Assembly: GCF_003201355.1 (NCBI RefSeq)
Contig: NZ_QICL01000002.1
Span: 124,001-188,000 of the forward strand
Direction: 5' to 3'
Origin: Indolivaga alginatilytica
Lineage (GTDB): Bacteria; Bacteroidota; Bacteroidia; Bacteroidales; Dysgonomonadaceae
DNA: 64,000 nt
Part shown: piece after piece, positions 1,910 to 56,598 of the stretch
How the letters are laid out: each line of letters starts with the position of its first letter
Numbering within the stretch: the stretch's first letter is position 1
The notes under the pieces: model-generated
What the model saw: only the letters and a program-made list of their open reading frames with translations
What the model was told of the DNA's origin: nothing
Database searches by the model: none
Position numbers and translations under genes: made by a program

Positions 1910-1946
1910 TATACTTAACCAAGTAATAAAAAGGTCTTAGACCTTA
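1910..1946 (+). repeat. Dispersed AAGGTCT palindrome element, copy 1
   Basis: TATACTTAACCAAGTAATAA is followed by the palindromic core AAGGTCTTAGACCTT (1931-1945) and a final A. This copy retains both the left flank and the intact core. It is not next to a stop codon; the nearest gene downstream is at 2110. Confidence 0.8.
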
Positions 1947-1964
1947 AAAAAAAGAAATAACTTT

Positions 1965-1972
1965 TATATTTG
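1965..1972 (+). promoter_or_regulatory. Candidate promoter -7 box for the gene at 2110
   Basis: TATATTTG matches the Bacteroidetes sigma-ABfr -7 consensus TAnnTTTG. Transcription would start near 1979, giving a leader of about 130 nt. No convincing TTG -33 box was found. Confidence 0.5.
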
Positions 1973-2109
1973 TAATAATTAAACTCCGGCTGTGATTTTT
2001 ATTTGCCCCACGCACACTTGCAGGTAAATAACACCGACCCCGCAGACGAGGCACAAAGCTGAAACTATTAATCACAAAGGCTTGCTATTCTTAGCAGGCT
2101 TAAAAGCGG

Positions 2110-2511
2110 ATGTTTATGAATCAGAAAAATAATGATTTCAAACACTTGGTCGGACACGCATGTTCAGCCCTTCCTTTGTCTCACTTAGCAATAAAAGAGA
2201 AGTACAACAACTATCCTCTATGTCTGATAAGGTATATGGAAAAAGGTAATCTCATGGATTATGTGGAAGTCGGTTTTGACAAAGAGAATGTCTCCCTGAC
2301 CTTTATTATGGACAAAGAAGACAAGTGCTGTTCAGCATCGATCCATTTCTATGAACCCAAAGATGAAACCTTGTTTATCATCTTTTTGCGTCAATACTCA
2401 AAATATTACAGTTACAGGAAAAAGTGCTGGATATTGAAAGACTCTATTTATTGTAAAATAGAAGAGAGTGAAAGCACACACTTCTATTTTTATAAAATGC
2501 CGGTTTCATAA
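2110..2511 (+). CDS. Hypothetical protein, 133 aa
   Basis: I do not recognise this protein. It has no signal peptide or membrane segment and looks cytosolic, mixed alpha/beta and rich in Tyr, Cys and Lys (YSKYYSYRKKCW near residue 97). Two ATGs lie close together (codons 1 and 3), so the start is uncertain by two residues. The gene stands alone, preceded by a TATATTTG promoter and an unusually long leader, and followed by a long inverted repeat. The isolated position between repeats suggests an accessory gene. Its function cannot be inferred. Confidence 0.6.
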   Translation: MFMNQKNNDFKHLVGHACSALPLSHLAIKEKYNNYPLCLIRYMEKGNLMDYVEVGFDKENVSLTFIMDKEDKCCSASIHFYEPKDETLFIIFLRQYSKYYSYRKKCWILKDSIYCKIEESESTHFYFYKMPVS

Positions 2512-2528
2512 AAAAACGAAGCAGAATC

Positions 2529-2703
2529 TTAAACTAAGAGGGTGTGTCAAGAGTCTGAACAGAACACAAATTACACTGAAATAACAGAAAATACAGATTT
2601 TTTTTTATTTCGCTATTTAACAGTGATTTATGAAATACAAAAATCTGTGATATCAGTGTATTCTGTGTGCTGGATATCTTATGACACACCCCCCTTGGTT
2701 TAA
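2529..2703. repeat. Long imperfect inverted repeat, MITE-like
   Basis: The ends mirror each other: TTAAACTAAGAGGGTGTGTCA on the left (2529-2549) and TGACACACCC...TTGGTTTAA on the right (2682-2703). The inner arms also pair: AGAACACAAATTACACTGA against TCAGTGTATTCTGTGTG, and ACAGATTTTT against AAAAATCTGTG. The roughly 175-bp unit is non-coding and would fold into one long hairpin. Related sequence (CAGAACACAGAGTGCACTGATAC) occurs near 30,946 and, weaker, near 50,062, so it belongs to a dispersed family. Confidence 0.75.
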
Positions 2704-2711
2704 TTCATCAC

Positions 2712-2783
2712 TCATTTCTCTTTGAGCTTCTCAATCTGCTCCTTCAAAGCATAATCAATTATAATACAATTGCAGTTTCGCAT
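2712..2783 (-). pseudogene. Possible 3' gene remnant or micro-ORF, 23 aa
   Basis: The frame MRNCNCIIIDYALKEQIEKL plus KEK and a TGA stop runs leftward. IDYALKEQIEKLKEK looks like the charged helical tail of a larger protein, and the upstream in-frame sequence has no longer frame. It could be the last piece of a lost gene truncated by repeat insertion, or chance. Confidence is low. Confidence 0.2.
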
Positions 2784-2823
2784 AAATCATAAAACAAACA
2801 GATTTATGAAAGACTTAAATTCT

Positions 2824-2831: not shown

Positions 2832-2854
2832 AGCAATCAAACTTAATAAAATAT

Positions 2855-10848: not shown

Positions 10849-10852
10849 AATC

Positions 10853-14687: not shown

Positions 14688-14749
14688 ACTATATAGATAA
14701 CTAGTAATATTAAATGATATATTTAAAAGCTATAACAGTCTGTTGTTAT

Positions 14750-14787
14750 TATGCTTACCAGAATAGTGAAAAAGGGACGAGACCTTA
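14750..14787 (+). repeat. Decayed AAGGTCT palindrome element, copy 2
   Basis: TATGCTTACCAGAATAGTGA then AAAAGGGACGAGACCTTA: left flank and right arm resemble the family, the left arm is mutated. The terminal TTA (14785-14787) is the reverse complement of the adaptor gene's TAA stop codon. Confidence 0.55.
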
Positions 14788-21273: not shown

Positions 21274-21404
21274 GTAGTAAAATCGTTCTGATTATATCTC
21301 TTTGTTCTGATATTCTTAGAATATGAGATCATAGGCATTGTTAACTATTTACGACTGTCTTTTACAACTATAAATAGTTATGGTTGTTATATCTATTAAA
21401 GCTT

Positions 21405-21425
21405 CAAAAAGGTCTGTGGCTTTAA
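21405..21425 (+). repeat. Possible decayed AAGGTCT element
   Basis: AAAAAGGTCTGTGGCTTTAA keeps the left arm and part of the right arm of the dispersed palindrome, about 50 bp before the gene at 21477. It is too decayed to be sure. Confidence 0.3.
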
Positions 21426-29590: not shown

Positions 29591-29607
29591 TTAGGTCGCA
29601 GACCTTT
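29591..29607 (-). repeat. AAGGTCT palindrome element between pstS and pstC
   Basis: Read leftward: AAAAAGGTCTGCGACCTAAA, about 10 bp after the pstS stop and 20 bp before pstC. It is inside the operon, so it is transcribed and could form a small hairpin that tunes expression of pstS against pstC. Confidence 0.75.
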
Positions 29608-29614
29608 TTGTTAT

Positions 29615-30676
29615 TTAGTTCGCAACAGGTTGAGCTACTTCTATTGCTTTACCGTCAAATGTGATTGATTTTATGATTGCCGTTGTCTTTTCCAAAGCTT
29701 TGGCAGGTAGCGGAGCGTAGTGGGTTTTCACTGCAATCTCTTGTCCTTCTTTGCTTATAATGTAGTCGAATAATGCCACTAATGCTTTAGCCTGAACTTC
29801 GGTTTTCTTGTTATAGTTTTGTTCCTTGTAAGCAATAATCCAAGTGAAAGTACTGATAGGATAAGCTTCAGGATTAGATGAGTTGGTAATGATTTGTCTT
29901 GTATCATCCGGAAGATCGGCTTCAGCCGATGCTGAGATACTCTTATCATTAGCTGCGATAAAGTTACCAGAACTGTTTTGTAGTGATGCTGATGCAATAT
30001 TCAGAGCCAATGCATATTCAGAACCGATATATCCGATAGAACCTTCTGTTCCCGAAATAATTCCTGCTACACCGGGATTACCTTTTGCTGCAACTCCCAC
30101 AGGGAATTTCAACGATTTACCACTGCCGATTTCGTTTTTCCAAGCCTCGTTGGTTTTAGCCATATATTCAGAGAAAACTGAAGTTGTACCACTGCCGTCC
30201 GAACGATAAACTGCTGTTATTTCTTTGTTGGGGAATGTAATGTTTGGGTTGATAGCTTTGATTTTAGCATCATTCCAGTTTGTAATCTTACCTCTGAAAA
30301 TATCTGAGATGATTTCAGAACTCAGCTTCAAATCAGTTACTCCCGGAAGGTTGTAAGATAGAACCACTGCTCCAAGTGCTGTTGGTATATGTATTACATC
30401 TGAACCCATTTCTTTAAGTTCTTCGTCAGATAAAAATACATCGGTTGCCCCAAAGTCTACAGTTTTGTCTTTTAAGCTTCGTATTCCCCCACCACTGCCG
30501 ATAGCTCCGTATGTAACATTGTTACCGGATGCTTCGCTGAATTTTTTGAATACTATGTTATAAAATGGAGCGGGAAATGTGGCTCCTGCACCCGATAGTT
30601 TTGCTGTTTCACCTTTGTTGGAATTACAGGCTGTCAACGAGATAGCTGCTGCTAAAATGAATAGTAATTTTTTCAT
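29615..30676 (-). CDS. pstS: Phosphate-binding lipoprotein
   Basis: The 353-aa substrate-binding protein has a lipobox (AISLTACNSN, Cys about 17). Phosphate-binding motifs are GAGATFPAPFY (about 30-40), GAIGSGGGIRSL and RSDGSGTTSVFSEY (about 158-171). It captures phosphate at the inner-membrane outer face or in the periplasm and hands it to PstC/PstA. It is the first gene of the operon, with candidate PhoB sites about 165-190 bp upstream and an AAGGTCT element 16 bp before the ATG. Confidence 0.95.
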   Translation of the reverse strand: MKKLLFILAAAISLTACNSNKGETAKLSGAGATFPAPFYNIVFKKFSEASGNNVTYGAIGSGGGIRSLKDKTVDFGATDVFLSDEELKEMGSDVIHIPTALGAVVLSYNLPGVTDLKLSSEIISDIFRGKITNWNDAKIKAINPNITFPNKEITAVYRSDGSGTTSVFSEYMAKTNEAWKNEIGSGKSLKFPVGVAAKGNPGVAGIISGTEGSIGYIGSEYALALNIASASLQNSSGNFIAANDKSISASAEADLPDDTRQIITNSSNPEAYPISTFTWIIAYKEQNYNKKTEVQAKALVALFDYIISKEGQEIAVKTHYAPLPAKALEKTTAIIKSITFDGKAIEVAQPVAN

Positions 30677-30690: not shown

Positions 30691-30706
30691 TAAGGTCTCA
30701 GACCTA
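30691..30706 (-). repeat. AAGGTCT palindrome element in the pstS leader
   Basis: Read leftward: AAATAGGTCTGAGACCTTAAA, ending about 16 bp before the pstS ATG, so it probably lies in the 5' untranslated region. Confidence 0.75.
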
Positions 30707-30794
30707 TTTAATGTTTTTGTAAAAATAAGTGCAACCGATAGTTATAATTGAATAATGTTAGTAAAATACTAACTGTTGCTTATTTCCTTTTAAT

Positions 30795-35607: not shown

Positions 35608-35625
35608 TAAGGTCTTAGACCTTTT
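35608..35625 (-). repeat. AAGGTCT palindrome element in the rsgA leader
   Basis: Read leftward: CAAAAAGGTCTAAGACCTTAAG. The palindromic core is intact at 35609-35623. It lies 26 bp upstream of the rsgA ATG. A degenerate GTAGG-type repeat is next to it (35645-35672). Confidence 0.75.
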
Positions 35626-35744
35626 TGATATTAATTAATCTCCCGTAGGTGTATGACATTATACCTCTACATTTCTTTCGTCTGTAAAGGTATAAATTAA
35701 GTGCTAATAATGATTTATTCTTGTATGATTTAAGAATGCGTCCC

Positions 35745-36989: not shown

Positions 36990-37146
36990 AAGAGATGTGT
37001 TTAGATTGATGGATAAAAGGTTTTATTTCATGTAAGAATATTAAGTTGATCAAAATTATTTAGGGATACATCTTCAAATAACCCTAGGTTATAGTTATTA
37101 TATTTAATAAGGTCTGATATCTTGATAAAGTGTGTAAGATAGCAAA

Positions 37147-37779: not shown

Positions 37780-37870
37780 TTGTTGTGAAAATTACAAATA
37801 TGTTTATTCTTTTTGTTTATTAAATAAGAATGTATGGAGTTTACTATTAGTGCTTGTCTGCTTGTTTGTT

Positions 37871-37908
37871 ATATCAAGCCAAGCAATAAGAAGGTCTGCG
37901 ACCTCTTA
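37871..37908 (+). repeat. AAGGTCT palindrome element overlapping the pyrH stop
   Basis: AAGCCAAGCAATAAG, then the core AAGGTCTGCGACCT and CTTA. The final TTA (37906-37908) is the pyrH stop codon read leftward. The CAAGCCAAGCAATAA flank matches other copies. Confidence 0.8.
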
Positions 37909-38616: not shown

Positions 38617-38676
38617 TTATTAAGTAGATAAAAGTGTTTAGTGATACATCTTAGGGTAACAACAGACAATATCTGT

Positions 38677-38713
38677 TATACTTGCCAAAATATTAAACAG
38701 GCACGAAACCTTA
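38677..38713 (+). repeat. Decayed AAGGTCT element upstream of pyrH
   Basis: TATACTTGCC is conserved, followed by AAAATATTAAACAGGCACGAAACCTTA. The palindrome has decayed but the right arm and final TTA remain. No gene now ends there on either strand. Confidence 0.5.
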
Positions 38714-44065: not shown

Positions 44066-44143
44066 AAGTATATGTAAATAGTTATTATATAAGCGTAGTA
44101 ACTTTCTTGTAACTCGTAACTAATTACCTGCAACTGTTCAACT

Positions 44144-46219
44144 ATGGGATATTTAAATAAAAAGCTGAAAATACCAACCCCTACCTTTTTTATATTTGCT
44201 ATTATTCTGATAGCTTACTTTGCTCCACGCGAGACTACGGTAAGCTACAATGAGAGCGAAGGTAAGCCTTGGCGCTATGGGCTTGTAACAGCCCCTATGG
44301 ATTTTCCTATTTATAAGCCGGAGGCGCAATTAGAACAGGAGAGGGATAGTATTTTAAAGGAGTATATTCCTTATTATAGCTTAGATAAATTCAGGTCGGA
44401 AAGGGCAATCACTCTGTTTACGAATGATGCTCAGGCAGCTGAAATACCCGAAGGGTATATTCAGTATGTGCAACGAAAGATGCACGAAATTTATCAGGCA
44501 GGATTAATTGCCGCTACAGATTATGATAAAATAGAAGAAAGTAACTTGCAACAACTATATCTTATTAATGGTGATAATGTTGCTTCTATCCGGAATATTA
44601 ATTCCTTTTATACATCAAAACTGGCTTATGAAAAGCTGATAAACGATCTTCCCGAGAATTTGCAATTGTATGTTATTCAGTCTCTCAACTTGAATAACTA
44701 CTTGTATGATAATATCATCTTAGATAGCGAACTTTCGAAGAAAGCTAAAGATGAACTGTTGATGAAAGTCCCCTTTGCAGAAGGAAACGTTCTGGCAGGG
44801 CAGAAGATTATCGATAGAGGTGAGATTGTAACACCCAAGACTGTACATATACTCAATTCATTGCAAAAAATTACAGAGCAGAAAGAGGGGTCGACTACGC
44901 GTAAGAATTGGATGGTTGTAGGAGATATTATATTGATAACAGCCCTCATTATGGCGTTTATGACTTACCTGATATTTTTCCGTCCGAGAGAATATTATGA
45001 CAGGCGTAATGTGGTGTTTATGCTCATGATGGTTACTGCTCTATGTGTATTAACGGGACTCTTTGTAAAGCTGGGATTCAATGTCTATATAATCCCATAT
45101 GCTATGGCAACGGTTATGGTACGTACATTTATCGATTCTCGTACAGCCATGCTTACACATCTTATAACGGCTATAATCTGTTCGCTGATGGTACCGTTTC
45201 CTCAGGAGTTTCTTCTGTTGCAGATACCCGTAGGCTTTATGTGTATCTTTAGCTTGAAGGATTTGTCGGAAAGGTCTCAATTGATAAAATCGTCGTTCTT
45301 TATCTTACTTACCTATACATCTCTTTATATTGGTGTGACATTAGCTCTGAAAGGTGATATCAAACAGATTGACCCATTGATGTTCCTTTATTTTGCGATC
45401 AACTTTATGTTCGTAATGTTTGCATACCTGTTGGTGTATATGTGCGAAAAGGTATTCGGATTTATATCGGGAGTAAGTATGATCGAACTATCGAATATCA
45501 ACAAACCTTTATTGCAGCAACTGTCGGAGGTGGCACCGGGTACGTTTCAACACTCGATGCAGGTCTCTAATTTAGCGGCTGCGGTAGCCACTCGTATTGG
45601 AGCAAATGCTCCTCTGGTGCGTACGGGAGCATTGTATCACGATATCGGAAAAATGATTAATCCTGCTTATTTTACCGAAAATCAGATTCCGGGAATGAAT
45701 CCTCATATAGGACTGTCTTATAAAGAAAGTGCGCGTATAATTATAAATCATGTGCCCGAAGGAATTAAGATTGCCCGCAAATATAATCTACCTCAACAGA
45801 TTATCGATTTTATCGCAACTCATCATGGAACGGGAAAGGTGAAATATTTCTACAATTCCTATAAAAACGAACATGCAGATGAGGCTGTAAGTGAGGCTGA
45901 TTTTTCGTATCCGGGTCCAAATCCGTTTACGAAAGAAACAGCAATTCTGATGATGGCAGACACAGTAGAAGCTGCATCGAGAAGTCTAAAAGAATATACA
46001 GAAGAATCTATATCTCAATTGGTAAATAGGCTGATTGATACTCAAATGCATGACGGATTACTCAGAAATGCACCTATTACCTTTAGGGATATTGAGATTG
46101 CAAAGAACATATTCAAGGAGAAACTGATGACTATATATCATTCTCGTATTGCCTATCCGGAGTTATCAAAGGAGGCAGAAAAAAACATAGAAGAAGCTGA
46201 AGAAAAAGCTTCGATGTAA
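44144..46219 (+). CDS. 7TM-HD phosphodiesterase, PgpH-like
   Basis: The 691-aa protein has an N-terminal TM (about 13-27), an extracellular 7TM-7TMR_HD region, seven TM helices (about 265-445), and a cytosolic HD domain (about 465-650) with HSMQVSNLAA, YHDIGKMINP, HHGTGKVKYF and MMADTVEAASR. PgpH in Listeria degrades cyclic di-AMP to pApA, so this is the likely role. The GTAACTCGTAACT repeat remnant just upstream (44098-44135) marks the border with pepE. Confidence 0.9.
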   Translation: MGYLNKKLKIPTPTFFIFAIILIAYFAPRETTVSYNESEGKPWRYGLVTAPMDFPIYKPEAQLEQERDSILKEYIPYYSLDKFRSERAITLFTNDAQAAEIPEGYIQYVQRKMHEIYQAGLIAATDYDKIEESNLQQLYLINGDNVASIRNINSFYTSKLAYEKLINDLPENLQLYVIQSLNLNNYLYDNIILDSELSKKAKDELLMKVPFAEGNVLAGQKIIDRGEIVTPKTVHILNSLQKITEQKEGSTTRKNWMVVGDIILITALIMAFMTYLIFFRPREYYDRRNVVFMLMMVTALCVLTGLFVKLGFNVYIIPYAMATVMVRTFIDSRTAMLTHLITAIICSLMVPFPQEFLLLQIPVGFMCIFSLKDLSERSQLIKSSFFILLTYTSLYIGVTLALKGDIKQIDPLMFLYFAINFMFVMFAYLLVYMCEKVFGFISGVSMIELSNINKPLLQQLSEVAPGTFQHSMQVSNLAAAVATRIGANAPLVRTGALYHDIGKMINPAYFTENQIPGMNPHIGLSYKESARIIINHVPEGIKIARKYNLPQQIIDFIATHHGTGKVKYFYNSYKNEHADEAVSEADFSYPGPNPFTKETAILMMADTVEAASRSLKEYTEESISQLVNRLIDTQMHDGLLRNAPITFRDIEIAKNIFKEKLMTIYHSRIAYPELSKEAEKNIEEAEEKASM

Positions 46220-46247
46220 AATTAAACACACTAAATTCTCTGAAAAA

Positions 46248-46616
46248 ATGGATATACCAAAGCCTTTAAGGGTTGTAAGTATTGTATTGGTAGTATTAGG
46301 AATTATAAGAATAGTTGCAGGCATATTGGGACTTATAGGATTGCGAGGTTTTTTCTCTGAAAATCCCGATCTGATTACTCAGGTTATAATTGAAAATTTT
46401 GTGGCAGGTCCACTAATCTTGATTTCAGGGTTGTTATTATTGAAAGGTAAAGCAATCGGTAGAATCCTTTTAGTTGTAGCGGTGGTTGGATCGTGGATTG
46501 CCAGTTTTGTAATTTCCAAAGAATATAGCATAGGTACTCTGATTATATTCAGTGCCATAATTGCTATTCTATTCTTAGAAGACAAGATCAAGCAATATTT
46601 TGCAGATAAAGCTTAA
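46248..46616 (+). CDS. Small membrane protein, 122 aa
   Basis: The protein has four hydrophobic segments (RVVSIVLVVLGIIRIVAGIL, VAGPLILISGLLLL, RILLVVAVVGSWIASFVI, GTLIIFSAIIAILFL) and a short charged C-terminus. It is 28 bp after the 7TM-HD gene and followed by a bidirectional terminator, so the two probably form one transcript. No family is recognised. Confidence 0.65.
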   Translation: MDIPKPLRVVSIVLVVLGIIRIVAGILGLIGLRGFFSENPDLITQVIIENFVAGPLILISGLLLLKGKAIGRILLVVAVVGSWIASFVISKEYSIGTLIIFSAIIAILFLEDKIKQYFADKA

Positions 46617-46634
46617 ACAGATTTGTTCTAAAAT

Positions 46635-46674
46635 AAAAAGAGGCGATGTTTGATTTCAAACATCGCCTCTTTTT
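46635..46674. terminator. Bidirectional terminator
   Basis: AAAAAGAGGCGATGTTTGA and TCAAACATCGCCTCTTTTT form a perfect 19-bp stem around a two-base loop. It separates the convergent membrane-protein and DUF4091 genes and has T tracts on both strands. Confidence 0.9.
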
Positions 46675-46688
46675 ATTTTTCGTTCTCT

Positions 46689-48470
46689 TTACTTCGAGAT
46701 TTCGTTAATCGTCATTTTCGCCTTATTCAGCATATCATTAATAGGCTCTGCTGGTTCAATAGTATTGAATTTAGCAACTTCGGCATTCAGTTTTTCCAAC
46801 TTGCTTAAAGATTCGGGAGTGTTGGCTTTCTTCAAGTCTTCTCTTAGAATGCGAATCTTTTCAAAATCCTGTATACCTTCTATCAAACGTTCGAAGCGTA
46901 TAGAGCTACGTGCCTCAGGATATACAATATATGTATCACCACCGGGCCATGTTCTGAATCGAGAATCGGTCAATGGATTTTCTACCCATGAGTTGTATGC
47001 CCAACGCAAGAAACCGTCGAAATCGGCAGCAATAGCATACCAGCTGGCATAAACAGACTCTGCTGAGTTAGAGAATGTAAACATATTAGGGAACTTATCA
47101 GAACAGCAAACGTAATACGTGGTTATCAAACCTTTTTCGCGACGCATAGCTATATCAGCCGAATCTACTTTCGCACCGGCAGCTACACACATATCTTTTA
47201 TGAATGGGTATTTCTTGTAGCTTTTGTGATTATCAGCCAATGATATACCTAGTTCGGGAGCTACTTTTTGTAGCAGGTCTACTGTTGCTTTCATCGCTTC
47301 GGGCGAACGCTCGTCCATAGCAATATTGGTTATCTCTAACCAGCCCTTTTCTTTCAGATGTTTGGTGAAATCAGTTAAAAAAGGAGTCCACATATCAGCG
47401 AATATTTTTGTTCCTGGATCAGCCTTCACATTTATAATCTCTTTAGAAGCAGCATCGGTATAATGTATCTCGTTATTCCAGGGAATCATCGAATAACAAT
47501 TGATCATTTTATTGATTCCTAAATCCATCATCAGTTGTACCCACTTGTCGAATATGGCATAATCGTAAGTCCATGTTCCATCTGTGTTTTTTGTCCATAT
47601 AATCATATCAGCATATGGGTCGAAGCATTGGTTGTGCCAAGGTTCTTTATTGATGTTTGCGGTAATTACTTTCTGTCCTGCATCGGCAAGCATTTTCATC
47701 TGGGGTTTAAGAGCTTCAAAATGTTTATCGCTCCACATTTCTAAGTTCTGAACACGAGCCACAGCCGAAGGATGTTGCCACAAATCAAGATGATAAGTCC
47801 ATTCAGAGGGAGAGGGTAAGGTTCTATCTTGAACCTCTATACTGATCTCAAATTCCTGAGTCTTTTGGTCTCTGGCATATACTTTAAGCTTACCATTATA
47901 AGTTCCCGCTGTTGCCGATTGAGGAATGTTTATACTAAGCCATACGGGACGTACGGTTTTAGCTTCGATATTGAAGCACTCCAAATTATCGAGCATATCG
48001 GCAGCTAGTGACGACGGGAAATCCTCAGGTTTACGATAGCCACAACCCGGCTCGAATATATCGGTCATAACATAACGAACAAATCTGGCTTGAGCTATAT
48101 CAGAAGATAGTTTTCCGTTGGGAGAAGTAAAGTCGCTGAATTCGCATTCTACTTGTTGAATGTCTTCAGCGCTCCAAAGTAATAGCTGTCCCGAAAGTTT
48201 TTCACCTTTCCATCCGGTTACTGTATATGATTGGCTGGCTTTAACTTCGGGCATTACCGATTTCGGATATTTGTCGTCTATACTCACAAAAGAAGCATTT
48301 AGTCCCGGAGGTGTCTGGCTCCAATTAGATAACGTGTCTGCTGTCGGATCAGCCATCTCAGCAAAGGTATCACACGTTTTTAGGGGTCTTTTCTGTTCGC
48401 AACTTGCAGATATTCCGCAAAGGATTATCAGGCAGATTAAGTTTCTTGCCAAAATCAAGGTTTTTTTCAT
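46689..48470 (-). CDS. DUF4091 domain lipoprotein, glycoside-hydrolase-like
   Basis: The 593-aa protein has a lipobox (GISASCEQ, Cys about 24), a beta-sandwich N-terminal region (about 60-215), and a TIM-barrel-like domain with WTYHLDLWQHPSAVARV, ITNIAMDERSPEAMKATV and a C-terminal DUF4091 motif (ADFDGFLRWAYNSWVENPL, YPEARSSIRFERLIEGIQDFEK). DUF4091 proteins are common in Bacteroidetes polysaccharide-degrading strains and are thought to act on glycans. Catalytic residues are not established here. It is monocistronic. Confidence 0.85.
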   Translation of the reverse strand: MKKTLILARNLICLIILCGISASCEQKRPLKTCDTFAEMADPTADTLSNWSQTPPGLNASFVSIDDKYPKSVMPEVKASQSYTVTGWKGEKLSGQLLLWSAEDIQQVECEFSDFTSPNGKLSSDIAQARFVRYVMTDIFEPGCGYRKPEDFPSSLAADMLDNLECFNIEAKTVRPVWLSINIPQSATAGTYNGKLKVYARDQKTQEFEISIEVQDRTLPSPSEWTYHLDLWQHPSAVARVQNLEMWSDKHFEALKPQMKMLADAGQKVITANINKEPWHNQCFDPYADMIIWTKNTDGTWTYDYAIFDKWVQLMMDLGINKMINCYSMIPWNNEIHYTDAASKEIINVKADPGTKIFADMWTPFLTDFTKHLKEKGWLEITNIAMDERSPEAMKATVDLLQKVAPELGISLADNHKSYKKYPFIKDMCVAAGAKVDSADIAMRREKGLITTYYVCCSDKFPNMFTFSNSAESVYASWYAIAADFDGFLRWAYNSWVENPLTDSRFRTWPGGDTYIVYPEARSSIRFERLIEGIQDFEKIRILREDLKKANTPESLSKLEKLNAEVAKFNTIEPAEPINDMLNKAKMTINEISK

Positions 48471-48613
48471 AGCATCTAAAAAGATTGGTTATTATAGTAT
48501 TTCGTTATAAACTGTTTTACAGCAATAAGGTATAAATGTAGTAAATAGTAATTAGTAAAGAAAACCAAATATTGTTAATGCTCTCTTAATAAGAAGTTTT
48601 TGTGATTAAAATG

Positions 48614-48645
48614 AAAAGAGACATCTGTACAGATGTCTCTTTTTT
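48614..48645 (-). terminator. Terminator adjoining the cbpM-like stop
   Basis: AAAAGAGACATCTGT and ACAGATGTCTCTTTT form a perfect palindrome with no loop bases, followed by T on the plus strand. The stop codon of the 115-aa gene (48644-48646) touches the right edge. Confidence 0.8.
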
Positions 48646-48991
48646 ATTCGTCTATCTCTTCCCACAAATCTTTATGGTGAAGCGATTTCAGTTTTCGCAA
48701 TGAGTAGAGTTCTTGTTCCAGAGTTTGTACTTTCTTCAATAAATTTTGTATAACATCTATACCTTCGATGTTGATCGAAAGATCGTAATACCAGTTTGCA
48801 AAACGTTCTAAATCGGGTAGCTGCGATTCTCTTATATAATGTTCCCCTTCAACTATCTCTATCTCTATCAATCCTTCGTTCTCTAACAGATCGATGAAAG
48901 ATGCTTCTACTTGCGAACTGTTACAGTATTCTTCTATTATAATTAGTCCTGTTTTCATAACGATATTCTTTAAGTAACAGTAAATATTCAA
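48644..48991 (-). CDS. Chaperone modulator, CbpM-like
   Basis: The frame begins at 48991 (MNIYCYLKNIVMKTG); an internal ATG at codon 12 (48958; MKTGLIIIEEYCN) may be the true start. It matches MerR-like CbpM: IEEYCNSSQVEASFIDLLENEG, then ESQLPDLERFANWYYDLSIN and a C-terminal coiled coil. In E. coli CbpM inhibits the DnaJ-like CbpA, whose homologue is encoded 63 bp upstream here, which supports the call. Confidence 0.8.
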   Translation of the reverse strand: MNIYCYLKNIVMKTGLIIIEEYCNSSQVEASFIDLLENEGLIEIEIVEGEHYIRESQLPDLERFANWYYDLSINIEGIDVIQNLLKKVQTLEQELYSLRKLKSLHHKDLWEEIDE

Positions 48992-49026
48992 TACAATATT
49001 ATCGAGTAATATCAGTCTATTGTACC

Positions 49027-49062
49027 TATACTTACCAAAGTAATAAATAAGTATTAGACCTT
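49027..49062 (+). repeat. AAGGTCT element overlapping the cbpA-like CDS end
   Basis: TATACTTACCAAAGTAATAA, then ATAAGTATTAGACCTT. The left arm has decayed. The TAA stop (49054-49056 read leftward) lies inside the palindrome and the last codons (AAG GTC) are the right arm, so the element forms the end of this protein. Confidence 0.65.
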
Positions 49063-49983
49063 CGATTGATAACTTGCAAGTTTCTTGAAGAGGTCTTTTT
49101 GCTCATCAGTCAAACCTGTTGGAACTTTTACAGAATAGGTGATGTATAGGTCACCAAACTGTCCGTCTTTTTTATATACAGGAAACCCCTTGCCTTTTAA
49201 CCGAACTTTAGTTCCATTTTGAGTTTCGGGTTTTACTTTCAATTTTACTTTTCCCGATAGAGTATCTATCATAGTCTCACCACCCAGTACTGCGGTATAT
49301 AAGTCTAACGATTCATTTACATACAGATCGTCTCCTAATCTTTTGAATAACGGGTCTTCTGCAATTACAAATGTGATATACAGATCTCCGTCAGGACCTC
49401 CGTTTACTCCCGGTCCTCCTTGTTTGGGTAGTTTTATAACTTGTCCGTCGGCAATACCGGCGGGAACGGTTATACGTATATTTTTACCGTTAACGGCAAG
49501 AGTTTGCTTATGTGTTTCCGATGCATCTTTTAAGCTGAGATGCAATTCGGCAGTATAGTCTTGCCCTTTGAAGCCATGCGATCTGCCGCCACGTGAACCT
49601 CTACTTCCTCTGTTTCCGAATAAGGATTCAAAGAAGTCCGAAAATTCGCTGTCGTCGCTAGAATAACTATAACTGGCATCGCCTCCAAATCCGCCGAAGC
49701 CTCCTCCAAAACCTCCACTTTGAGATTGTTGTTGACGGGCTTTCTCGTATTCTTCGCCATGTTGCCAATGTTCGCCATATGTATCGTATTTTTTTCTCTT
49801 TTCGGGATCACTCAAAACTTCATTAGCTTCGTTTATCTGCTGAAATTTTTGATGTGACTCCTTGTCATCCGGATTTAAATCGGGATGATACTTTCTGGCT
49901 AATTTTCGATATGCCTTTTTGATGTCGTCGGCTGAGGCATCCTTTTTTAGCCCAAGTACGCTATAATAATCAATAAATGCCAT
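49054..49983 (-). CDS. DnaJ/CbpA-like chaperone
   Basis: The 309-aa protein has a J domain (1-70) with KYHPDLN (H33, P34, D35), a Gly/Phe-rich linker ([12 protein letters not shown] near 90-101), and DnaJ C-terminal domains I and II (about 140-300). It lacks the zinc-finger region (no CxxCxGxG repeats), which makes it CbpA-like rather than DnaJ. It works with DnaK. The cbpM-like gene follows 63 bp later. Its last residues are encoded by a repeat element. Confidence 0.92.
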
Positions 49984-50059
49984 ATTTTATTTAGTTTATG
50001 TTATTAACATCTTATCCTGCTTATTCGTTCATTTGCCGAGTTTGTCCCAAAGGTGGAAT

Positions 50060-50195
50060 AGACACACAAAACATACTGAATATAGAGATTTTATATTAAA
50101 CGCCAAGTCGCCAAGCAGCAAAGTTATTTCCTTATTATTCGAAGACTAAAATCTCATTCTTTGCTCCCTCTCTATAGGAGAAGGTTGGGATGAAG
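50060..50195. repeat. Decayed interspersed repeats between pbpC and cbpA-like genes
   Basis: GACACACAAAACATACTGAATA, then AACGCCAAGTCGCCAAGCAGCAAAG (50099-50123), related to the repeat at 30945-31062. A second type follows at about 50164-50195, CCCTCTCTATAGGAGAAGG then TTGGGATGA. The flanks carry no gene. Confidence 0.5.
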
Positions 50196-50230
50196 TACAG
50201 TATATTCGATATTCTGTATCTCCTTTGAGA

Positions 50231-50268
50231 TAGCTTCCTGCAAAGCAATAAAAAGGTCTGCGACCTTA
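50231..50268 (+). repeat. AAGGTCT palindrome element overlapping the pbpC stop
   Basis: TAGCTTCCTGCAAAGCAATA, then AAAAGGTCTGCGACCTTA. The core is AAGGTCTGCGACCTT (50253-50267) and the last TTA (50266-50268) is the pbpC stop read leftward. Confidence 0.8.
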
Positions 50269-52635
50269 CTTTACAGTAAAGTTAAGAACTAATGAGTTGC
50301 CCGTTTCATCCACAACAGTCAATCGGTGTTTCCCTGCAACGGGAGCTAATTCTTTCTTATGAAAATTCTGAGTCTCGCCAACATAAGTATCATCTAAGTG
50401 CCAATATACTTTTGTCTGCGGATTGCGGTGAGCCAGTTCGAAGATGACCTTTCCGGGCGATCCGTCCAATTGCTTCGGTATACTTACAACCCCATTTGCA
50501 AACGGATATATGAATTCCATCGTTTTGGTTTGATCTTCGTCCATACATTCGGGCGAAAATGGTGGTAACATCTGATAAGACGGATGTTGTTCTTTATAAA
50601 ACCATTCCCACGAAGGCGGTAAAACAAACCACGAAGTTTGTACTATACCTCTGCTTCCTGCGCAGTTTTCATACACTCTGTATTTGAAATCTTCGGATAC
50701 ATTTATCCTTATATGAAAATCGCAGGCGTTAGTCTCCATACCTTTTTTAGTAATCCATACTGTATCGGCTGATGTTTCAGGACAATTTATGCCCGTCAAC
50801 ATTCCGCTTTCTTTACATGTTTCAGCTTGTATAAGATCGCTTGTGGGAGGTGTAAACCATTTGGATGTGGGTAGCGAATTGAAGATATCGAACATTACCA
50901 TTCCGGCAGTTCTTGCACCCGTCAATCCCGGGCGACCTTCTCCGTCTGAGTTACCCACCCATACGCCAACGGCATATTTAGGATTAACTCCCACTGCCCA
51001 ACCGTCGCGGAAACCAAAGCTTGTGCCTGTTTTCCATGCAATTTTTTGTATGGATGGGATAGACCTCCAATCGATCTCCTCCGGACGATTTACATTCGTC
51101 AGAGCATCAAAGGTCAGCCAGATAGCACCCGCTTCAAACAGTGGTCTCGTAATACGCTCAATAGGTTCGTTATTATCCTCGCTGTAGATATACGAGATCG
51201 GTTTGTGTTTCCAGTAACGTTGTTCGTCGTTATAATCGTTCAAAGATTGTGCCATATGTGCATACATAGACGTGATGTCCCATAATTTACCTTCAGCTCC
51301 ACCCAGAATAAGCGAAAGCCCATAAGTATCGGGCGAACGTGACAAAGTTGTCATACCTGCCTCCTTCAATAGGGAGTAGAATTTGGGTATACCGTATTTT
51401 CGGAGTGAAACCACAAACGGAATATTGAGAGATCGTGCCAATGCTTCGGAAGCAGGAGCTGCACCATCGTAATTGAGACTGAAATTCTTAGGGCTGAAAC
51501 CGTTGATATTGATCGGTATATCTGCCAGTAATTGATTGGGGAGTAATTGACCATCCTGAAGCATGGCACAATAGAGGAACGGCTTTAATATACTACCCGT
51601 ACTTCGCGGTGCTTGAATAACATCTACCTGATTGGCTGAGACGCTTTTATCGAAATTGACATTTCCGCAATAAGCAACAACCTCGTTCTTTTCAATATCG
51701 ATAACTACTGCGGCGATGTTCTTTATTTCATTCTGTGCAAATTCGGCATTCCATCTCGATAATATATTCTCAATCAATAATTGTCGGCGTTTATCAATGG
51801 TAGAGCGTATATGTTTGCCGCCTTGTTCCATATATATCTTAGTTACAAGGTGAGGTGCAACTTGTGGTAGTGAATAGGGTTCGAAGGGTAGGGGCTCGGC
51901 TATCGAAAGCTCGTAATCTATCTCATCAATAACTCCCTTTTCTTGCAGACGCTTGAGTAGGTTGTTTCGTTTGTTTAAAAGTTTCTCTCTGTTACGACCA
52001 AAGTGCATAATTGCAGGAGAATTAGGAAGTACAGCCAGTGTTGCCGCTTCTGCCCAAGATAGGGTAGAGGATTGATGCCCGAAATATCGCCATGATGCGG
52101 CTTCTATTCCTACAACATTACCGCCCATTGGAGCATGTGAAGCATATAGATTTATAATTTCATCTTTCGAATAGGAAAACTCAAGCCGTGTAGCTAAAAT
52201 CATCTCAATAAACTTCTCTCCGAAAGTCCGCTTTTCTTTTCTCGATAAACGGATGGTTTGCATGGTAATGGTACTAGCCCCACTTACAATTCGTTTCTGA
52301 GAGATATTCTGTTTAATGGCTCTAAAGAGCGAGATCGGATTTATACCCCAGTGATAACTGAAATACTGATCTTCGAACTGAGTAACGCATACTCTGTATT
52401 TTTCGGGGACGGAATCAACGGAAGGAAAACGCCATTGCTGATCGTTGGCAATACGTGCCCCCAATAATTCGTTTTCTCTATCGGAGACCACCGTACTATA
52501 TGGAACATCAAAAAGTGGCGAAGGCAGACAGAATATATACCAGATAACTAAAATACTGCACAAAGGAATTGCTATTTTGTATTTAAGCTTGGCATTCTTA
52601 TATCTGTTTATCCACTTTTTGATATTTTCTTTCAT
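50266..52635 (-). CDS. pbpC: Penicillin-binding protein 1C
   Basis: The 789-aa bifunctional enzyme has an N-terminal TM (about 20-38), a glycosyltransferase-51 domain (about 55-235, catalytic E88 in FEDQYFSYHWG), a transpeptidase domain with S348-x-x-K351, SLN (SxN motif) and KTGTSFGFRD, and the C-terminal BiPBP domain (about 700-789) typical of PBP1C. It polymerises and cross-links peptidoglycan. In many bacteria it is linked to an alpha-2-macroglobulin gene, absent here. An endonuclease/phosphatase gene lies just upstream (7 bp). Confidence 0.94.
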   Translation of the reverse strand: MKENIKKWINRYKNAKLKYKIAIPLCSILVIWYIFCLPSPLFDVPYSTVVSDRENELLGARIANDQQWRFPSVDSVPEKYRVCVTQFEDQYFSYHWGINPISLFRAIKQNISQKRIVSGASTITMQTIRLSRKEKRTFGEKFIEMILATRLEFSYSKDEIINLYASHAPMGGNVVGIEAASWRYFGHQSSTLSWAEAATLAVLPNSPAIMHFGRNREKLLNKRNNLLKRLQEKGVIDEIDYELSIAEPLPFEPYSLPQVAPHLVTKIYMEQGGKHIRSTIDKRRQLLIENILSRWNAEFAQNEIKNIAAVVIDIEKNEVVAYCGNVNFDKSVSANQVDVIQAPRSTGSILKPFLYCAMLQDGQLLPNQLLADIPININGFSPKNFSLNYDGAAPASEALARSLNIPFVVSLRKYGIPKFYSLLKEAGMTTLSRSPDTYGLSLILGGAEGKLWDITSMYAHMAQSLNDYNDEQRYWKHKPISYIYSEDNNEPIERITRPLFEAGAIWLTFDALTNVNRPEEIDWRSIPSIQKIAWKTGTSFGFRDGWAVGVNPKYAVGVWVGNSDGEGRPGLTGARTAGMVMFDIFNSLPTSKWFTPPTSDLIQAETCKESGMLTGINCPETSADTVWITKKGMETNACDFHIRINVSEDFKYRVYENCAGSRGIVQTSWFVLPPSWEWFYKEQHPSYQMLPPFSPECMDEDQTKTMEFIYPFANGVVSIPKQLDGSPGKVIFELAHRNPQTKVYWHLDDTYVGETQNFHKKELAPVAGKHRLTVVDETGNSLVLNFTVK

Positions 52636-52641
52636 TGATCT

Positions 52642-53502
52642 TTATTTTGTGAACTCAATTTGAGTAACTACAGGATAATGGTCGGAAGGCAGGCGGGGTA
52701 CACTGTTTGTATCCCAATAATTATCGTTTAAGATGGCATAACGTATAACGTTGAAATCCTTGGTAAGAAAAATATGATCTATACGCTCATCTGTTTTTCT
52801 CGTCAGGTCGAATGCATTGAATGTTCCGTTATTTGCATACTTGACAGGAGACAACTCATATGAGTCTCTCAGCAAGCCTGATGTATCCAAAAAGACGTAG
52901 CTTTCATTATTCTGGTCTACGTTGAAATCGCCGGTTAGTATCGCCGGTTTTTTTCCGGCTATCTTTTTAATTTTCTCAAGAACTAGTTTAGTTCCTTCTT
53001 TACGGGCTTTTATGCCGACATGATCGGTGTGTAAATTAAAGAGATAGAATACTTTGCCCGATGCTTGTTCTTTAAATTTACCCCACGTGCAAATACGAAT
53101 GCAAACTGCATCCCATCCCAAATTAGGTTTAGAAGAGTTATTCGCTAACCAGAAATTTCCTGAATTCAGCAATTTATACTTATTTTTTTTGTAGAAAATT
53201 GCAGAATATTCCCCTGCTTTCTTGCCATCGTCTCGTCCGACACCAATATAATCGAGTTCGGGTAATTGTTCCTTTATGTTTTCCAATTGGTTATGCAATC
53301 CTTCCTGTGTTCCGATAATATCGAGGTTGTGGTATTTGATCAAATTGCATATTTCGGGCAAACGTTGTTGCCAACCATTACCATTTTTTATATCATCCGA
53401 GTTCTCGTTACGAATATTATATGTTGCTACAGTTATTCTCTGAGCATTCACGATATATGAACAATTTAATATACAAAGTAGTAATAAGAATTTTGTTTTC
53501 AT
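52642..53502 (-). CDS. Endonuclease/exonuclease/phosphatase family protein, secreted
   Basis: The 286-aa protein has a signal peptide (LLLCILNCSYIVNAQ) and the EEP fold: VATYNIRNEN, IIGTQEGLHNQL (metal-binding Glu), LFNLHTDHVGIKAR, ILTGDFNVDQN and DRIDHIFLTKDF, with SDHYPVVTQI at the end. Such enzymes act as phosphodiesterases or nucleases; the substrate is unknown. It ends 6 bp before pbpC and may be co-transcribed. Confidence 0.9.
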   Translation of the reverse strand: MKTKFLLLLCILNCSYIVNAQRITVATYNIRNENSDDIKNGNGWQQRLPEICNLIKYHNLDIIGTQEGLHNQLENIKEQLPELDYIGVGRDDGKKAGEYSAIFYKKNKYKLLNSGNFWLANNSSKPNLGWDAVCIRICTWGKFKEQASGKVFYLFNLHTDHVGIKARKEGTKLVLEKIKKIAGKKPAILTGDFNVDQNNESYVFLDTSGLLRDSYELSPVKYANNGTFNAFDLTRKTDERIDHIFLTKDFNVIRYAILNDNYWDTNSVPRLPSDHYPVVTQIEFTK

Positions 53503-53533
53503 CGTTTATTAGTTTAGTGTTTCTTCTAACATA

Positions 53534-53568
53534 AAGACGAAGCTAATTTAATTAAAAAGCTTCGTCTT
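53534..53568. terminator. Hairpin between the gamma-CA and nuclease genes
   Basis: AAGACGAAGCT (53534-53544) and AGCTTCGTCTT (53558-53568) are exact reverse complements with a 13-bp AT-rich loop. T-tracts are weak, so this is a probable terminator of the gene at 53649. Confidence 0.6.
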
Positions 53569-53630
53569 ATATTATATTTTGGATATGAATGATTTTTGTT
53601 TGTCTTTTATTTCTCGAAGTAAAAGTTGGC

Positions 53631-53651
53631 AAAAAGGTTTGCGACCTTTTA
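53631..53651 (+). repeat. AAGGTCT element at the gamma-CA stop
   Basis: AAAAAGGTTTGCGACCTTTTA: the core AAGGTTTGCGACCTT is 53635-53649, and the final TTA (53649-53651) is the stop codon read leftward. The flank AAAGTTGGC resembles TTGCC of other copies only loosely. Confidence 0.7.
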
Positions 53652-54170
53652 TTCTTCATCTTTGAACCAACCCGAATACATCAAATAATTCTTAGCAATT
53701 TTCTGATTCATTTCTTTGGCCTGCTCGGCATCCACTTTCTTTACGAATTTGGCAGGTACTCCGGCATATATGCTTCCGGGTTCTATAATTGTTCCGCTGA
53801 GTACTACCGATCCGGCAGCAACAATAGAGCCTTCGCCTACTACTGCATGATCGAGAACTATTGCTCCCATGCCGATTAGAGCTCCGCTTTCTATTTTAGC
53901 ACCATGTATTACTACATTATGACCTACCGAAACATCATCGCCTATCTCAACAGTCGACTTTTGATAAAGTGTATGTAAAACAGTACCGTCTTGAATATTC
54001 ACACGGTTGCCTATACGTATTGAATTTACATCACCACGAAGTACAGCATTAAACCAAACGCTGCAATCATCGCCCATGATTACGTCTCCTATTATTGTTG
54101 CATTATCTGCCAAAAAAGCATTTTTTCCTATTTGAGGTGTAAAACCTCTAACTTCTTTAATTAAAGCCAT
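53649..54170 (-). CDS. Gamma-carbonic anhydrase family protein
   Basis: The 173-aa left-handed beta-helix (hexapeptide repeats such as VWFNAVLRGD, IRIGNRVNIQD, VEIGDDVSVG) has metal ligands H66 (HTLYQK), H84 and H89 (GHNVVIHG). These match the zinc/iron ligands of gamma-class carbonic anhydrases, though many relatives (PaaY, YrdA) lack strong activity. A C-terminal helix (EQAKEMNQKIAKNYLMY) is present. No operon partner. Confidence 0.9.
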   Translation of the reverse strand: MALIKEVRGFTPQIGKNAFLADNATIIGDVIMGDDCSVWFNAVLRGDVNSIRIGNRVNIQDGTVLHTLYQKSTVEIGDDVSVGHNVVIHGAKIESGALIGMGAIVLDHAVVGEGSIVAAGSVVLSGTIIEPGSIYAGVPAKFVKKVDAEQAKEMNQKIAKNYLMYSGWFKDEE

Positions 54171-54229
54171 TTTATTTTTCTATATAAATATAAAGTAAAT
54201 ACGAAGCGCAGCAAAAAAGGGGGATAGCC

Positions 54230-56023
54230 TTAGATTGCTTTAGTCTTATCTTTCAGCCATTCTTTTTCTTCTGCGGAAAGACTTGATGACAATCGGTCAT
54301 ATACATACTGATGATAATTGTTGAACCATGAAATTTCTTCCTCTGTAAGCATTTCCTTTACGATTGGGGTTGTATCTATCGGGCAAAGAGTAAGTGTTTC
54401 GAAAGAATAGAAAGCTCCAAACTCTGTTACACAATCTTCTTTTGTCAAGATCAGATTCTCAATACGGATACCGTATTGATTAGCTCGGTAAAGTCCCGGT
54501 TCGTTAGATGTTACCATTCCCGGCTGCAATGTAGTCGGATTTTCGTTCATCCGTATATTTTGAGGACCTTCGTGTACATTGAGAAAATGACCGATACCAT
54601 GCCCAGTTCCATGCAGATAATTAAGTCCATTATCCCATAAAGCTTTTCTAGCCAATATATCTATCTGGCTGCCTCGTGTGCCTTCCGGATATTTACATGT
54701 TGCTATACCTATGTGACCTTTGAGTACCATGGTATAATCCTTTTTCATTTGCTCGGTAAGAGGTCCTACGGCAACAGTACGTGTAATGTCGGTAGTGCCA
54801 TCAAAATATTGAGCGCCCGAATCTATCAGTTGAAGCCCTTCGGGTTTCACTTTAGCTGAGCTTTCGGGTGTTACATGATAGTGAACAATTGCTCCATTAG
54901 GCCCATAACCTGCTATTGTATCGAAACTTTCTCCTACATAAAGGTCTTGTTGACTCCTGTATTCGGTTAGTTTTTCAACGATTGTCATTTCTTCCACTTC
55001 ACCTGTTGGTACAGCTTCTTCAAACCACATAAGGAATTTTACTAAAGCAACACCATCGCGTTGCATTGCATTGCGGAAGCCTTCTTGTTCAGTTTCATTC
55101 TTCTTGCTTTTCATCAGATCGGCAGGAGAAGGAATATCTATGATGCGGCAAGTTTTTGGGATCTTATTATACAGAGCGAAAGATACTTTTGAACTTTGTA
55201 AGCAAATTCGGGTTTGAGGATGAATTGAGCTTATATAATCAAATATCTTATCGTAATCGGCTACTTGTATGTTTTCCTGTTTGAAGTATTGACCCATCTC
55301 TTGAGTCAGCTTCTTAGGATTGATAAACACGACTGTTTCTTTTTTAGAAACATAAGCAAAGCAAACTGCTACAGGATTACACTGAACATCATTCCCCCTG
55401 ATATTGAAAAGCCATGCAATTGTATCCAACGATGCTACTAATAGCGAGTCAGCACCATGCTTGTCTATAATAGTACAGATTTGTGAAATCTTTTTAGAAG
55501 CTTCAAGTCCGCTGTACTTAACGGGTAGTTCAAAAATAGGATTCAGAGGTATCTGAGGTCTGTCTTTCCATATTTCAACAAAAGGGTCGTAATCAGTTAT
55601 TAGATGTAATCCGTTTAGATTCAATCTAACATTTAGCTGAAAAGCTTCGTTTGCTGCATATACGTTTCCATCGATACCCACAGTATTGCCTTCGGATAAT
55701 TCAGAAATCAGCCATTCTTCAATAGTTGGGGTCGTGGGCAAGCCTTCTCTGAAAAGATCGATGCTTGTATTTTCTAATTGCTTTGCAGCTTGAAGGAAAT
55801 AACGCGAGTCTGTCCATAAGCCGGCTTTATCTCGTGTAACAACTACAGTACCGGCAGATCCGGTGAATCCGCTAATCCATTCTCTTGAAGCCCAATGTGC
55901 GGCAGGATACTCACTCAGATGAGGATCGGTGCTGGGGATTATAAACGCATGTAGTTGTTTTTCTTCCAGAAACTTTCTTAGTGCTCCCAGATGGCGTTGT
56001 ATATTGTTTGCCATGACGTGCAA
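54230..56023 (-). CDS. pepP: Xaa-Pro aminopeptidase, M24B
   Basis: The 597-aa protein has two N-terminal creatinase-like domains (about 1-310) and a C-terminal M24 pita-bread domain with metal ligands in LIDSGAQYFDGTTDITRT (two Asp), HGTGHGIGHFLNVHEGP (His), NEPGLY (Glu) and IENL (Glu). This is the long eukaryote-like form common in Bacteroidetes. It removes an N-terminal residue preceding proline. It is the gene upstream of the gamma-CA gene on the same strand. Confidence 0.93.
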   Translation of the reverse strand: MHVMANNIQRHLGALRKFLEEKQLHAFIIPSTDPHLSEYPAAHWASREWISGFTGSAGTVVVTRDKAGLWTDSRYFLQAAKQLENTSIDLFREGLPTTPTIEEWLISELSEGNTVGIDGNVYAANEAFQLNVRLNLNGLHLITDYDPFVEIWKDRPQIPLNPIFELPVKYSGLEASKKISQICTIIDKHGADSLLVASLDTIAWLFNIRGNDVQCNPVAVCFAYVSKKETVVFINPKKLTQEMGQYFKQENIQVADYDKIFDYISSIHPQTRICLQSSKVSFALYNKIPKTCRIIDIPSPADLMKSKKNETEQEGFRNAMQRDGVALVKFLMWFEEAVPTGEVEEMTIVEKLTEYRSQQDLYVGESFDTIAGYGPNGAIVHYHVTPESSAKVKPEGLQLIDSGAQYFDGTTDITRTVAVGPLTEQMKKDYTMVLKGHIGIATCKYPEGTRGSQIDILARKALWDNGLNYLHGTGHGIGHFLNVHEGPQNIRMNENPTTLQPGMVTSNEPGLYRANQYGIRIENLILTKEDCVTEFGAFYSFETLTLCPIDTTPIVKEMLTEEEISWFNNYHQYVYDRLSSSLSAEEKEWLKDKTKAI

Positions 56024-56076
56024 TATTTAAGTATGGTGAAACTATAAGAGTCCGGCGTAGTAGTTGAGGACTCTAT

Positions 56077-56427
56077 TTAACTTTTCATTTTGCAGGACCC
56101 TGTAAAACGGGCTCCCGGTTCTATCTCTATGATTTGAGTAGTAATATCTCCAATCAGATTTGCTGTAACTCTAAGTATTATCGTGTCTTCGCACAACACG
56201 TTGCCTGAAACTTTTCCAAGTAAATCAAGATTTTGACATTCTACATCACCCGAAACGTGACCGTTATTACCGATGATGATTTTTCCCTGGCTGATAATAT
56301 TTCCTTCAATAACTCCATCGATTCGAATATCATCTTGCGTGACTAGATTTCCTGTCAGGACGGTTCCTGTCGATAATACATTATGCATGCCACTTGGGGC
56401 TGGTGCGACTTCCTTACGATTTAGCAT
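56077..56427 (-). CDS. Bactofilin
   Basis: The 116-aa protein is a DUF583/bactofilin domain: STGTVLTGNLVTQDDIRIDG, VIEGNIISQGKIIIGNNGHV, SGDVECQNLDLLGKVSGNV, with repeats of about 18 residues forming a right-handed beta-helix. Bactofilins polymerise into cytoskeletal filaments that help set cell shape or localise cell-wall enzymes. No peptidase (LmdC-type) partner is next to it. A TATATTTG box precedes it. Confidence 0.92.
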   Translation of the reverse strand: MLNRKEVAPAPSGMHNVLSTGTVLTGNLVTQDDIRIDGVIEGNIISQGKIIIGNNGHVSGDVECQNLDLLGKVSGNVLCEDTIILRVTANLIGDITTQIIEIEPGARFTGSCKMKS

Positions 56428-56459
56428 ATGTCAAATTATAATTGAGATTTTTCAGATAA

Positions 56460-56467
56460 CAAATATA
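56460..56467 (-). promoter_or_regulatory. Candidate promoter -7 box for the bactofilin gene
   Basis: Read leftward this is TATATTTG, 33 bp before the ATG at 56427. Confidence 0.5.
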
Positions 56468-56560
56468 AAAAAAAAACTTAGCTTTGCAGCTCTATTCTTC
56501 TACTTAAGTAACAGCAGCTATATAATACAATACTATTCGGCTATAAGAGCCGATTGTATT

Positions 56561-56598
56561 TATACTTGCCAAAGCAATAAAAAAGGTCTGAGACCTTA
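56561..56598 (+). repeat. AAGGTCT palindrome element in the folB leader, best copy
   Basis: TATACTTGCCAAAGCAATAA, then AAAAGGTCTGAGACCTTA with the core at 56583-56597. This copy is the most complete and defines the consensus. It ends 17 bp before the folB ATG. Confidence 0.85.

Follow-up and report, generated by a model that had tools for sequence, protein, structure and literature searches.

In the window, the 64,000-nucleotide stretch of Indolivaga alginatilytica contig NZ_QICL01000002.1 (positions 124,001 to 188,000) analysed here, a short palindrome recurs near gene borders, and it proved to form the right-hand end of a larger element. This element very probably represents a family of non-coding miniature inverted-repeat transposable elements (MITEs) of about 93 bp, which duplicates a TA target, carries ends of the type found in IS630 (Tc1/mariner superfamily) and would be mobilised in trans by a transposase of the IS630 family. 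The MITE-like reading was adopted because of the TA borders, the empty orthologous sites, the inverted repeats, the absence of a gene and the IS630-type ends. An earlier note on this DNA had suggested a repetitive extragenic palindrome (REP), a MITE-like element or an uncharacterised regulatory hairpin, and only the second suggestion was borne out. The source genome of the window, G000 (5.12 Mb), belongs to a Dysgonomonas relative. Parts of its contigs C1 and C2, window included and with some runs of N, made up an 857-kb sample, in which genes were called by a simple in-house caller (~84% of bases called coding).

The palindrome family was far more abundant than expected by chance. At up to two mismatches, the window held 20 strand-matches, compared with 1.2 expected from shuffles (largest shuffle 6). 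Across G000, AAGGTCNNNGACCTT was present in 289 exact copies and its reversed control in none, so the genome-wide count proposed in the earlier note came out far above chance. Exact copies were also counted in the same-genus genomes G001 (120), G003 (39), G004 (141) and G005, taken to be Dysgonomonas sp. HGC4 (94), and none was detected in G002 (62% complete). In the 857-kb sample the arm AAGGTC had 60 exact copies, each of the other 179 permuted arms had at most one, and the next most frequent unmasked 6-bp arm of any kind had eight. The centre, described before as variable, does vary but is not free, as four triplet pairs accounted for 58 of the 60 loops (TCA/TGA 26, GCA/TGC 13, TAA/TTA 11, ACA/TGT 8, others 2). 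Copies were not equally frequent in coding regions: 4 of 127 with at most one mismatch lay inside called genes, which largely agrees with the claim that they sit only between genes, except that several reach into the final bases of a stop codon. The proposed density of one per about 5 kb holds for the whole element, which nhmmer matched 150 times in the 857 kb at E ≤ 0.01; exact palindromes are sparser, at one per ~18 kb. All eight copies listed as good were recovered, four exactly (1931, 35609, 50253, 56583) and four with one mismatch on the better strand (29592, 30692, 37891 and 53634, the last previously placed one base off at 53635). The decayed copies were genuine as well, being parts of near full-length elements at 14694/14698-14787, 21334-21423, 38621-38713 and 48971-49063. 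Rfam covariance models at gathering thresholds yielded tRNA alone in the window, and no known Rfam family at the element.

Based on the alignment of flanks, the palindrome was placed at the right end of a unit with the layout TAAGTAA…TTTAATGC…GCAATAAA[AAGGTC-NNN-GACCTT]A. The 20-bp left flank noticed earlier in some copies was confirmed and extends over this ~93-bp unit. Among 74 copies trimmed by script, with only those of 80-100 bp retained, the length ranged from 86 to 100 bp with a mode of 93 (28/74). The borders were examined in 49 copies picked by exact TAAGTAA on the left and 70 copies with GACCTTA on the right; they were sharp TA…TA borders, outside which there was only an A/T bias of ~0.3-0.6 bit per base over three bases and less beyond. 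When the left end was compared with the reverse-complemented right end in 54 copies selected for a TA start, positions 1-4 agreed in 87-98% and positions 17-20 in 74-94%, and positions 12, 15 and 22 agreed further. The ends are imperfect terminal inverted repeats of ~24 bp, TAAG-N12-TTTAWTGC, at the same offset from each end. The element has no gene and is too short to hold one. Longer members exist, including two variants of 168 bp with extra sequence in the middle and others of about 120-130 bp, several of which carry a GTAGGGGC-type hairpin mid-element. In the sample, no convincing gene-bearing copy was obtained by strict pairing of left and right ends, nor by loose end-pairing among the matches listed. 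The features by which MITEs are recognised were all found: length below 200 bp, no protein, dispersed high copy number, terminal inverted repeats, and TA duplication with empty sites.

The evidence of mobility came from orthologous loci in Dysgonomonas sp. HGC4, the relative of the window's genome (protein identity 97%, locus L086). Near full-length copies from G000 (98) and HGC4 (26) were used as input, and the flanks of 17 and 11 of them, respectively, could be paired with available sequence of the other genome. Of these 28 sites, 16 were dropped for a copy on both sides or over-long sequence between the flanks, and 12 were scored as empty. A strict test tried TA junctions alone and required a single TA flanked on each side by 8 or more matching bases out of 12; six of the 12 sites passed it. 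In a control with a free gap of 0-6 bases of any kind, a single TA was the sole best junction at five sites and tied at four, thus best or tied at 9 of 12. The comparison of loci lacking the element, another check proposed in the earlier note, therefore revealed empty sites in HGC4, mostly with a single TA. Six sites were occupied in both genomes, four of them in the window (14694, 38621, 48971 and around 63175) and two in C2 (32779 and 51751). Identity to the nearest neighbour in the sample reached 98%, and because 7 of the 74 copies were at least 95% identical to a neighbour while the median was 80%, several waves of spread, some of them recent, are suggested.

A candidate mobiliser was found in carriers outside the window's family. 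The IS630 transposase domain DDE_3 was present in both element carriers from other families, G396 and G222. The G396 gene (locus L230) belongs to the NCBIfam IS630 family, spans two frames and lies in an element of 1,114 bp with TA flanks and the ends TAAGTAAGTCTTAACAATTAATTTATAT and TAAGTAGATGTTGAGAATTAGTTTATAT. The same genome holds 152 matches (at most two mismatches) to its own version of the mini-element right end, and its mini-elements were exactly 93 bp at 18 of 30 loci read. Their left end, TAAGTAATATAAAACAATTAATGT, is similar to that of the IS630 element; scored against a profile of 11 G396 mini-element left ends, the IS630 left end ranked 32nd of 204,942 windows from 34 loci, and all 31 windows above it, together with the two just below, were at mini-elements. 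Seven IS630 copies were compared (L230, three loci from viral contigs and three from plasmids), and five, L230 and four of the six others, had inverted TAAGTA/TAAGTG ends with 22-26 of 30 bases matching. The palindrome itself was not seen at the IS630 ends examined, where the longest inverted arms in the first 24 bases of ten ends were 5 bp versus 6-7 bp at the mini-element right ends. The G222 match was a fragment, near which a loose scan gave no convincing end, and tblastn found no IS630 relative among the loci then sampled. Across the three Pfam families searched in G000, the transposases were one partial DDE_Tnp_1 (PF01609) copy at a contig edge, one Y1 and no DDE_3.

The right-end hairpin was the only structure retained by RNAalifold on the whole element; other helices of the whole-element fold were set aside, as they look subfamily-specific (mean z -1.0, 61 copies). 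Average-product-corrected covariation picked out pair 87-95 (G-C 53, C-G 4, T-A 3 of 61). In the stem, 8 cells were changed on both sides compared with 1.1 in shuffles; the number of stem pairs with a double change was 2, which 115 of 500 shuffles reached. Between lineages the stem appears as GGTC, GCTC, GTTC and GCAC, in G396 as GCAC/GTGC. With G-T scored as a pair, the 22 copies closely related to another (≥85%) had 5.95 of 6 stem pairs and the 24 isolated ones (<75%) had 5.0. Among 12 G000 copies absent from the HGC4 site, read by eye, three had the full stem and four more lacked only the outermost pair. At the six sites occupied in both genomes, the full Watson-Crick stem was kept in both at one, C2:51751, whose G000 copy also holds a GTAGGGGC-type insert, and was broken in at least one genome at the other five. 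The hairpin tends to decay with age, with small numbers and one exception. These results bear on the possibility that the palindrome serves the host in regulation, as an operator, attenuator or terminator under selection, and is not mobile. Many copies lie no more than tens of bases from a start or stop codon, the stem covaries, it is terminator-like in one direction and it stayed intact in both genomes at one shared site, all as such a signal would predict. Nevertheless, the element is missing from orthologous HGC4 sites, the stem is broken at five of the six shared ones, the conserved unit has ~77 bp beyond the palindrome, and copies stand at both 5' and 3' gene ends in either orientation. 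We therefore consider a primarily regulatory nature very unlikely.

A terminator-like character may nonetheless belong to the MITE as a part of its right end. Read from a gene into this end, the palindrome is followed by TTTTTATTG, and the two together resemble a predicted intrinsic terminator for the gene running into it. A terminator scan of window positions 44001-64000 gave 24 terminator-like sites versus 12.9 expected, two of which were element palindromes on the minus strand (50267-50253 and 56597-56583). Stop codons were then compared with element ends in 73 intergenic trimmed copies, excluding copies known by the right end alone. Of the right ends facing a stop codon, 14 of 36 were exactly on it, more than the 5.98 expected under uniform TA choice (binomial p 0.001); for left ends the figures were 3 of 25 and 3.14. 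Insertion at the TA of a TAA stop codon would retain the stop (TA+A), and where the right end faces the gene it would also supply the predicted terminator. Docked insertions may be over-represented because they are harmless in this way, and the excess fits selection for harmless, terminator-supplying insertions. It is conceivable, if somewhat doubtful, that a MITE lineage, long-lived and distinct from the IS630 elements that are its parents, gained the terminator-like palindrome at one end as a stop-codon 'docking' device which makes insertions nearly harmless. If so, this would explain the survival of the 93-bp unit in several Bacteroidales families with a palindrome changing in concert (GGTC, GCAC, GCTC, GTTC). 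As a separate observation, at C1:391809 and C1:128090 in G000 the stop codons of predicted genes lie in the AATAA stretch of the element beside the palindrome, and the last part of the reading frame seems to be supplied by the element.

Several results weigh against the proposed MITE and its terminator-like end. Six of the 12 empty sites did not pass the strict TA test, and at three of the 12 a single TA was not the best junction in the free-gap control. The spacer differs wholly between the two mini-element ends. The second end of the G396 IS630 ranked 719th and did not score as a match, and two of the seven IS630 copies, on Phocaeicola and Bacteroides plasmids, had no such inverted ends and appear truncated. 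Because the DDE_3 gene was absent from all nine genomes searched that carry the element in the window's genus and family, we only infer that an IS630-family transposase would move the Dysgonomonas copies in trans. As for the right end, the shared site with an intact stem in both genomes does not follow the decay, the short terminator hairpin folds at only -5.5 kcal/mol (z -0.9), and a different hairpin was predicted when the actual 50 nt at 50241-50290 were folded. Docking differed between right and left ends at p = 0.04 only, and its excess depends on the in-house gene caller. An occupied site that reads like a TA duplication, with a single TA at the empty one, is also compatible with an element ending in TA, as would be the case for a single-strand, IS200/IS605-like non-autonomous element whose right hairpin is the transposase foot and whose TA is the target end. 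The hairpin at one end only agrees with such an element, which is nevertheless improbable to a high degree: the 84 copies along C1 were split 38 to 46 between the plus and minus strands, without bias and under a GC skew that was negative throughout, inverted repeats are at both ends, Y1_Tnp is absent in 4 of 11 element-bearing genomes, and it is the IS630 ends that resemble the element.

REPs carry a GTAG-type foot, and REP-associated tyrosine transposases (RAYTs, of Y1 type) adjoin their REPs. Despite a short, dispersed, mainly extragenic palindrome in hundreds of copies and one Y1_Tnp gene in G000, a REP moved by a RAYT hardly deserves consideration, as the unit measures ~93 bp and is bounded by TA and inverted repeats, its consensus lacks such a foot, the Y1 gene, sought as the earlier note advised and read for its flanks in G000 only, is bordered by other hairpins (GGATTTGCAATCC type) and not by the element palindrome, and Y1_Tnp was unmatched in four of the 11 element-bearing genomes, including G004 and G005 with at least 150 element matches each.

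In an order-wide draw, the covariance model of the MITE family matched 7 of 393 genomes at E ≤ 0.001 (G000, G001, three genomes of the same family, G222 and G396), under stricter filters by which weak matches are lost, and in a phylum-wide draw it matched 1 of 395, G000 itself. A set of 12 chosen genomes gave matches in 10 at E ≤ 0.01, and G000, G001, G004 and G005 had at least 150 each. The same architecture, length included, was found in two other Bacteroidales families, the 93-bp layout thereby being common to three. No match was obtained in a DNA search of plasmid and phage collections or with the exact pattern in viral contigs. Two genomes of other families, G076 (locus L039) and G096 (L020), had 71 and 7 exact AAGGTCNNNGACCTT copies and no element-model match; from sequence, these palindromes would be a different or very diverged repeat.

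Full-length elements in the window were located at 56505..56598 (plus strand; right palindrome 56583-56597), where the empty HGC4 site has a single TA and G000 shows one additional T, and at 30691..30782 (minus strand), which ends 15 bp 5' of a start codon and has no copy at the HGC4 place, its junction TA being read by eye outside the scored set. On the plus strand, full-length elements with a decayed hairpin at 48971..49063 and 38621..38713 and a decayed, near full-length one at 14694..14787 are common to HGC4; another decayed, near full-length element is at 21334..21423. A 129-bp plus-strand member at 1818..1946 has the TAAGTAA left end, a longer middle and an intact palindrome (1931-1945). 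Right-end parts were found on the plus strand at 50241..50268, 53607..53648 and 37864..37905. The palindrome of the first (50253-50267) overlaps a stop codon, that of gene 50266-52635 on the minus strand (penicillin-binding protein domains), and on this strand it is a terminator-like site; the second adjoins the stop codon of gene 53649-54170, is a weak model match (E 0.46) and has similar sequence at the same HGC4 place; the third adjoins the stop codon of gene 37906-38616. On the minus strand, the part at 29592..29634 has its palindrome (29592-29606) 8 bp past the stop of gene 29615-30676, and the right-end palindrome at 35608..35628 (exact at 35609-35623; weak model match, E 0.69) lies upstream of the rsgA-like gene 34653-35582. 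A decayed plus-strand palindrome at 37109..37123 is a possible remnant, with no model match at E ≤ 1.

Other repeats were observed in G000. A second hairpin repeat, GTAGGGGCAGACCTATGTGT...ACACATAGGTTCACCCCTACA, lies within some copies (C1:562730-562852, C2:2903-3029, C2:41924-42052) and seems to occur outside the element too, GTAGGGG[CA] having 37 matches in the sample. A repeat of ~530 bp, whose inverted ends resemble AATCAGTAGTTGAAT, was seen on C1 near 365534-366052, 382700-383225 and 516913, and in three cases adjoins the element or its right end. The Y1 (RAYT-like) transposase L019 (C1:535982-536215) has hairpins of its own, of GGATTTGCAATCC and GGGATTATAAATCCC types.

No earlier description of the family was found in the open-access literature searched, which is no proof of absence. 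Our work adds an IS630-type MITE family to Bacteroidales. Its asymmetric, covarying, terminator-like end provides a testable example of selfish DNA evolving harmlessness at gene ends, and its copies may mislead predictions of terminators or regulatory motifs in Dysgonomonas genomes. Like REP/RAYT systems, it consists of high-copy extragenic palindromes; unlike them, it has no linked RAYT found, and has TA borders and a 93-bp unit. Bacterial MITEs are described as shorter than 200 bp with TA ends in the parts consulted of Delihas 2007 (PMC2229807), and RUP with IS630-Spn1 is there a named case of MITE ends matching an insertion sequence (IS). Correia/NEMIS and ERIC, according to the same parts, are likewise MITE-like with TA termini and target duplication; they belong to other bacteria, with inverted repeats of 24 bp in Correia and 7 bp in ERIC, and an asymmetric palindromic end is not mentioned in those parts. 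RUP, BOX and the terminator-like SPRITE are described in PMC3049150. In the sections seen there, SPRITE of Streptococcus pneumoniae is also terminator-like near gene 3' ends and suggested to be a co-opted terminator, but it is an 18-bp duplex with no significant similarity to IS ends, whereas our element has IS630-type ends. The closest likeness, by description and not by sequence, is with RUP (repeat unit of pneumococcus), for which IS630-Spn1 is the proposed mover: the portions consulted of PMC2229807 and PMC3049150 give ~100 bp, ~100 copies, a TA target, intergenic location and inverted repeats resembling those of an IS630 element. RUP is from another host phylum and folds with its inverted repeats paired (PMC3049150, in part), whereas in our element one end holds a covarying palindrome of its own, and no parent IS was found in the window's family. 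By analogy, the family would work like RUP, and by the features tested it is a MITE; it differs from the known kinds in its one-end covarying palindrome and in a 93-bp layout kept across three families.

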